Part shown: positions 1,846 to 2,190 of the stretch, piece after piece
Layout of the letters: each line of letters opens with the position of its first letter
Position numbering within the stretch: position 1 is the first letter of the stretch
Source: Burkholderia diffusa
GTDB taxonomy: Bacteria; Pseudomonadota; Gammaproteobacteria; Burkholderiales; Burkholderiaceae
Assembly (NCBI RefSeq): GCF_001718315.1
Contig: NZ_CP013362.1
Coordinates: 1,240,001-1,304,000 of the forward strand
DNA: 64,000 bases
Reading direction: 5' to 3'
Notes under the pieces: generated by a model
What the model saw: only the letters and a program-made list of their open reading frames with translations
The model's database searches: none
What the model was told of the DNA's origin: nothing
Position numbers and translations under genes: made by a program

Positions 1846-2190
1846 GCCGGGGTGATGAAATTGGTAAACATAGCGGACTTAAACGATTGAGTGCCCGGCC
1901 GGAAACGGTCGGTGCAGAACCCTTCAAATTCGGCGAAACCCCTGATGCGCGACGCGCGTCGAGGCAACGCCGAGCCAAGCCTCGCGGTACAGCTCGAGCG
2001 AGGAAGGTGTAGAGACTAGACGGGGGGCGCCTAAGGCGCACGGGTGGCGATCACGCCCGCGCGCGATGGCGAAGGCATAGTCCAGCGCACGAACGGCTCC
2101 GTTTCGACGACGCCGGCTTTGAAAGAAGCAGTGTGACGAAAATCCGCCGCCTTGATTGGCTTGCCGGTTCAAGTCCGGTCCCCGGCACCA
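1846..2190 (+). tRNA. tRNA-Leu(UAA), interrupted by a group I intron
   Basis: The exons are 1846-1880 and 2139-2190, joining to an 87-nt tRNA with encoded CCA. Acceptor arms GCCGGGG (1846-1852) and CCCCGGC (2180-2186) pair fully. The D-stem is ATG/CAT. The anticodon stem is GCGGA/TCCGC around loop CTTAAAA, giving anticodon UAA. The variable arm (GCC/GGC) has the class II length of leucine tRNAs, and the T-arm is GCCGG-TTCAAGT-CCGGT. The gene is split after the first anticodon base (U34), the site used by the tRNA-Leu(UAA) introns of cyanobacteria and plastids. Decoding UUA, a rare codon in GC-rich genomes, fits. Intron-blind tRNA finders would miss this gene or report it as broken. Confidence 0.93.
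1881..2138 (+). ncRNA. Group I self-splicing intron (IC3-like) in tRNA-Leu(UAA)
   Basis: A 258-nt intron. The 5' exon ends in ACTT and the internal guide GAGT (1889-1892) pairs with it, leaving the required U.G wobble at the splice site. The last intron base is G (2138). Core elements appear in order: P/P4 region TTCAAATTCGGCGAAACC (1923-1940), Q region ACGCCGAGCCAAGCC (1967-1981), R region GTGTAGAGACTAGACGG (2007-2023) and S region AAGGCATAGTCC (2072-2083). These closely match the Azoarcus tRNA-Ile intron from memory. A P2 hairpin (CCGGCC/GGTCGG, loop GGAAAC) follows P1. The intron is too small for a homing endonuclease and none is seen. Self-splicing is inferred from the intact core. Confidence 0.92.

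Follow-up and report, generated by a model that had tools for sequence, protein, structure and literature searches.

Within a 64,000-nucleotide (nt) stretch of the Burkholderia diffusa genome (hereafter the window; contig NZ_CP013362.1, positions 1,240,001-1,304,000, forward strand), we found a gene for the transfer RNA (tRNA) tRNA-Leu(UAA) at 1846-2190 (+). It is very probably functional and split by a group I ribozyme, whose splicing would restore the UAA anticodon and on which the cell should depend. This reading follows from a set of converging observations, i.e., a regular spliced tRNA, covariation in the ribozyme helices, an internal guide that follows its exon, one copy in each of 65 genomes of the genus, and a genome in which no other tRNA bears the anticodon UAA. 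Relatives carry an orthologous intronless tRNA whose sequence otherwise matches the exons.

The interrupted gene and its boundaries

When introns are allowed, ARAGORN calls a tRNA-Leu(taa) that spans 1846-2190 and whose anticodon loop holds 258 nt of intron; in its default mode, the program calls no tRNA at all in the window. The 5' exon (1846-1880, +) extends through U34 of the anticodon, and the 3' exon (2139-2190, +) comprises A35, A36, and the remaining tRNA, including the variable arm and an encoded CCA. Between them lies the group I intron (1881-2138, +), which has no open reading frame (ORF) of its own and whose last base is G. Once the intron is removed, ARAGORN types the resulting 87-mer as a regular tRNA-Leu(UAA), with a cloverleaf, a long variable arm, and the encoded CCA. 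An earlier note, made from the letters alone, had proposed this interrupted gene, the split between U34 and A35, and the terminal G. Its coordinates proved exact: ARAGORN places the intron at that same split, and the second of two covariance models ends on the G at 2138.

The first of these models, the Rfam group I model RF00028, matches at 1833-2106 with 33 bits (E 1.4e-6), and this match is the only one in the 6.86-Mb genome. The second one, R1, starts and ends its match precisely at 1881 and 2138, with 211.7 bits, a score to be read knowing that the window's intron is among the 22 related introns from which R1 was built. The parsed related introns measure about 200-330 nt, and those of the Leu type all end in G. 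No homing endonuclease ORF was found in the intron, its 258 nt leaving no room for one; a scan of promoters and terminators detected nothing; and the search for a phage source gave no match among phage records. Two long minus-strand ORFs (1924-2430, - and 2051-3304, -) overlie the intron in the window and are probably not genes. In Mycetohabitans (locus L302, NC_014718.1:181348-182013), an annotated J-domain coding sequence overlaps the end of the tRNA gene region.

Ribozyme fold and guide pairing

Helices P2 to P9 were written as in a standard group I intron, with P7 as a pseudoknot, and evaluated on alignment A1, which holds 22 related introns of one family whose hosts are tRNAs of five kinds. 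In these introns, 95.2% of the cells are paired, versus 81.6% in shuffled controls and 31-46% after sliding of the partner strand, and both sides have changed in 31 of the 53 pairs, P7 included. P3, P7, and P8 are paired in every one of the 22 sequences, and each of them shows such double changes; those in P7 go from C-G to G-C, from U-A to C-G, and from A-U to U-A or G-C.

On the plus strand of the window, the P2 stem-loop (1895-1912) carries a GAAA loop, and all seven of its pairs show compensatory changes. P3 (1920-1925/2022-2027, spanning 1920-2027; 100% of cells paired) encloses P4 (1930-1935/1968-1973; 97%), P5 (1940-1945/1959-1964; 91%), and P6 (1974-1983/2000-2008), whose base is invariant and 100% paired and whose P6a reaches 84%. 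P7, the guanosine-binding helix (2014-2018/2078-2082), is pseudoknotted with P3 and has double changes in 3/5 pairs; P8 (2028-2031/2068-2071) has them in 3/4. The P9 region (2086-2135) contains an outer helix (2086-2090/2131-2135), P9 itself (2094-2097/2112-2115), and a GAAA hairpin (2116-2129), with 93-97% of cells paired and compensatory changes. The core elements that had been read from the letters are all present, with helices backed by covariation. The GAAA motifs of L2 and of the P9-region hairpin recur in nearly all relatives. P2 and P9 hairpins with GNRA loops on a short intron define the Azoarcus-type periphery of subgroup IC3, the bacterial tRNA introns, to which the window's intron may belong. 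An 11-nt receptor for the GAAA loop in P8 was considered and rejected, the loose pattern fitting only 34/100 introns, and we make no tertiary claim.

P1 (1877-1892, +) pairs the exon end ACUU (1877-1880) with the internal guide GAGU (1889-1892) and places a U.G pair at the splice site, as the earlier reading had it. The two bases UU at 1887-1888 can pair with A+1 and A+2 (P10); for P10, the observed pairing equals the best shuffle and is no better. Among 89 introns, the guide varies with the host: it is GGG in Arg(CCU), and GAG in Leu(UAA), Ser(UGA), and Thr(UGU), whose exons end in CUU. Over distinct exon/guide combinations, 90% of P1 positions pair, while 500 shuffles give a mean of 79% and a best value of 87%. 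The opening bases AAACGATTGAG, previously taken as a hint of cyanobacterial or plastid kinship, contain the guide UUGAG. Since GAG is dictated by the exon end CUU, this likeness reflects a shared target, and it is ruled out as a sign of kinship. The same intron family also occupies tRNA-Leu(CAA) genes at C34|A35 (L094-L097, L100, L129, L132, and L184), where the 5' splice-site pair is C-G instead of the near-universal U.G; two of these genes, L097 and L132, are identical in intron and exons, though they come from two families.

In the mechanism that we propose from the sequence, the folded precursor RNA would form P1 between the guide GAGU and the exon end ACUU, and an external guanosine held in P7 would attack after U34. 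The freed 5' exon would then attack after the terminal G (2138), joining the exons and restoring the UAA anticodon.

Distribution, relatives, and origin

Exactly one full copy of the gene is present in 65/65 genomes of the genus, with 83-100% identity. Where the neighbouring LacI-type gene is shared, intron identity tracks the identity of this gene (Mantel r 0.82, with 0/2000 permutations as high), which is what vertical inheritance predicts. We also observed, in several Burkholderia genomes, extra copies of the tRNA 3' end, mostly of its last 28-34 nt, lying 1.5-22 kb from the intact gene (G034:C1:1742559-1742637, G052:C4:505540-505572, G013:C5:2737446, and G027:C1:1200314). These are probable attachment sites of integrated elements that use the tRNA-Leu(UAA) gene.

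At the level of the family Burkholderiaceae, the distribution is patchy: some genera bear the intron throughout, and others have the exons joined without it. ARAGORN finds a plain 85-nt tRNA-Leu(UAA) at the intronless loci L101-L106 and L117-L120. One of these empty genes (L104) adjoins the same LacI-type gene as the intron-bearing loci, and another (L118) lies about 2 kb from it, so that the same locus exists with and without intron. Plasmids carry the gene as well: large ones in Mycetohabitans, and ones of 61-72 kb in the insect endosymbionts Candidatus (Ca.) Vallotia, whose genomes are reduced to 1.1-1.2 Mb; in one of the Ca. Vallotia plasmids, it lies between an aminotransferase gene and rpsU. 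No intact second copy of tRNA-Leu(UAA) was found in the Ca. Vallotia genomes G130 and G071. A Ca. Vallotia chromosome (G091:C1:456581-456898) seems to carry a second Leu tRNA, split by about 230 nt, whose anticodon is probably CAA; this would be a further intron retained despite strong genome reduction. The earlier note had asked whether the intron is an old inheritance or a transfer into the same site. Inheritance holds within the genus, and at the level of the family the picture is patchy, with empty sites.

Searches with R1 (E <=1e-5) matched 64/399 genomes of the order, 76/370 of the class, and 45/398 of the phylum, these draws sharing some genomes. According to ARAGORN, the hosts of the related Pseudomonadota introns include tRNA-Leu(UAA), Leu(CAA), Ser(UGA), Arg(CCU), Ile(CAU), and Thr(UGU); some hosts labelled Phe in our tree tables, probably boundary slips of ARAGORN on Leu(UAA)-like genes, are not counted. 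A pattern scan gave Leu(UAA) examples in Pseudomonas, Stutzerimonas, Xanthomonas, Hydrogenophaga, Paracidovorax, Cupriavidus, and many cyanobacteria. Within the same genus, another group I intron splits tRNA-Thr(UGU) at U34|G35 (L107, G032:C1:454541), a host typed by loop length and labelled Thr(GGU) in the tree tables, where Thr(UGU) is correct; further introns lie in Arg(CCU) at L108 and in Ile(CAU) at L109. Other Pseudomonadota have group I introns in tRNA-Ser(UGA), also at U34|G35 (L140, L147, and L186). The Leu(UAA) exons of Cupriavidus and relatives (L091-L093, L098, and L099) are much nearer to Leu(CAA) (L094-L097) than to Burkholderia Leu(UAA), and these genes carry the same intron type as those Leu(CAA) genes; an anticodon switch of a duplicated intron-bearing gene is possible.

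We placed these introns in a tree of 100 sequences, assembled without the Azoarcus and Agrobacterium introns, whose bootstrap had not settled and whose support values are therefore rough. Burkholderiaceae and four further families of the order together supply a clade of 21 Leu(UAA) introns (99/96) that includes the window's intron, and this Burkholderia type sits in a proteobacterial group together with introns of other tRNAs (98/98). Another clade, of 33 introns (100/97), contains both Leu(UAA) and Leu(CAA) hosts and draws on alpha-, beta-, and gammaproteobacteria. Its named members have introns 90-97% identical, exons mostly 97-100% identical, and mostly unrelated flanks, which suggests movement of whole tRNA genes. 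A Sphingobium contig in this clade may be contamination.

As to the origin of the intron, we give about an even chance to a scenario in which an ancestor of the Burkholderia group acquired it horizontally within Burkholderiales, after which it was inherited vertically and lost repeatedly. This scenario concerns the origin only and is compatible with a functional, ribozyme-interrupted gene. The reach of the 21-intron clade over five families argues for it, as do the empty sites nested among bearers, two of which adjoin or lie close to the LacI-type gene that the loci share upstream, and the sister set of introns 90-97% identical in mostly unrelated flanks across alpha-, beta-, and gammaproteobacteria. 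On the other hand, the root and the direction may be different, and the pattern is also compatible with gains in certain lines in place of losses elsewhere.

A descent shared with the cyanobacterial tRNA-Leu(UAA) intron, in which both lines would have inherited one ancient intron, appears unlikely to us. The tRNA, the insertion position U34|A35, and the guide are the same, and the approximately unbiased (AU) test does not reject uniting the Burkholderia-type introns with those of cyanobacteria in one clade (p 0.227). However, the target determines both site and guide, and the two recur in the Ser(UGA) and Thr(UGU) introns, the best tree groups the Burkholderia type with the proteobacterial introns of other tRNAs and leaves the cyanobacterial ones apart on a long branch, and empty sites occur within the same family.

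Compared with known systems, the window's intron belongs to a known kind of element, group I introns in the tRNA-Leu(UAA) of Proteobacteria being known since 2002. In that year, Vepritskiy et al. reportedly described in J Bacteriol a group I intron of 231 nt that interrupts tRNA-Leu(UAA) in a subsurface Pseudomonas. Our Pseudomonas examples L292, L296, and L300, also of 231 nt and at U34|A35, share the tRNA, the intron group, and the phylum with the Burkholderia type, but they fall in the other clade (100/97) and have a different tRNA exon sequence. The Agrobacterium tRNA-Arg(CCU) intron is inserted after position 36 and has the guide GGG; it belongs to the same tRNA-intron family and differs in insertion site and guide. 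The cyanobacterial and plastid trnL intron (e.g., PMC4476775) shares the U34|A35 insertion, the guide UUGAG, and the group I core, whereas its cyanobacterial representatives sit on a long branch and score 110-145 bits with R1, versus 212 for the window's intron. The Azoarcus tRNA-Ile(CAU) intron and its kin, for which crystal structures exist (reviewed in PMC3984707), is likewise short, free of an endonuclease gene, located in the anticodon loop, and built on the same core elements; its tRNA and guide differ, and the order's own Ile(CAU) introns fall in separate clades and score 97-128 bits with R1. Introns in tRNA-Ile2 of Burkholderia and Acidovorax have been reported (PMC8450103). No prior report of the Burkholderia tRNA-Leu(UAA) intron was found in a literature search that lacked most older papers.

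Probable dependence on splicing and its meaning

We retrieved and typed every tRNA gene found in the genome, and used the spliced sequence as a query. No second tRNA-Leu(UAA) came out of either approach, in agreement with the earlier claim of a sole UUA-reading tRNA. The other Leu tRNAs genome-wide are CAG (three genes), CAA, UAG, and GAG (two genes), and the spliced sequence matches only the two halves of the intron-bearing gene and the Leu(CAA) gene (78%). C34 of the anticodon CAA reads UUG only. Thus, reading of UUA should depend on the intron-bearing gene, and the cell, on its splicing. UUA is rare but used, with 9/1516 leucine codons in the 43 likely genes of the window.

Several points weigh against a functional gene on which the cell depends. 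The RF00028 score of 33 bits stays below the gathering cut-off of 50 bits, which is the curators' threshold and not a biological criterion; annotation based on this cut-off would miss the intron. The 22-intron alignment includes the window's intron, from which the pairs were drawn, and this inflates the share of cells paired, not the count of compensatory changes. Because UUA is rare, the true dependence could be mild. The gene, its boundaries, the structure by covariation, the sole copy, and the distribution can be read from the sequence itself, while splicing in the cell, dependence on it, and the route of spread are what we infer from it. A decayed gene, i.e., a pseudogene with an inactive intron and UUA read by another tRNA, would be in keeping with the rarity of this codon but is highly improbable, given a single intact copy throughout the genus, core pairs kept by compensatory change, the lack of any other UAA tRNA, and the retention of the gene in reduced endosymbionts.

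For a functional gene, the intron would have been inherited vertically within the genus without a homing endonuclease, and its family would have spread over several tRNA anticodon loops, with reverse splicing or the transfer of entire tRNA genes as plausible routes. We tentatively extend this to the idea that an indispensable, single-copy tRNA is ribozyme-dependent genus-wide, and that the family spreads because the guide GAG fits all C32-U33-U34 loops (Leu(UAA), Ser(UGA), and Thr(UGU)); a variant in Leu(CAA) makes a C-G pair at the splice site in place of U.G. If true, these introns would document, in nature, a series of reverse-splicing moves among isoacceptor as well as non-isoacceptor tRNAs.

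A tRNA apparently needed across a whole genus escapes both the default tRNA search and the Rfam cut-off, so Burkholderia and its relatives can look as if they had no UUA-reading tRNA. Splicing inhibitors of group I introns, such as pentamidine, have already been probed in fungi (PMC10964413). If dependence were proven, our results would suggest an RNA target in a genus that includes opportunistic pathogens. With the same locus found with and without intron, a sole-copy tRNA, and many lineages, this gene also offers a clean system for distinguishing inherited from mobile tRNA introns.
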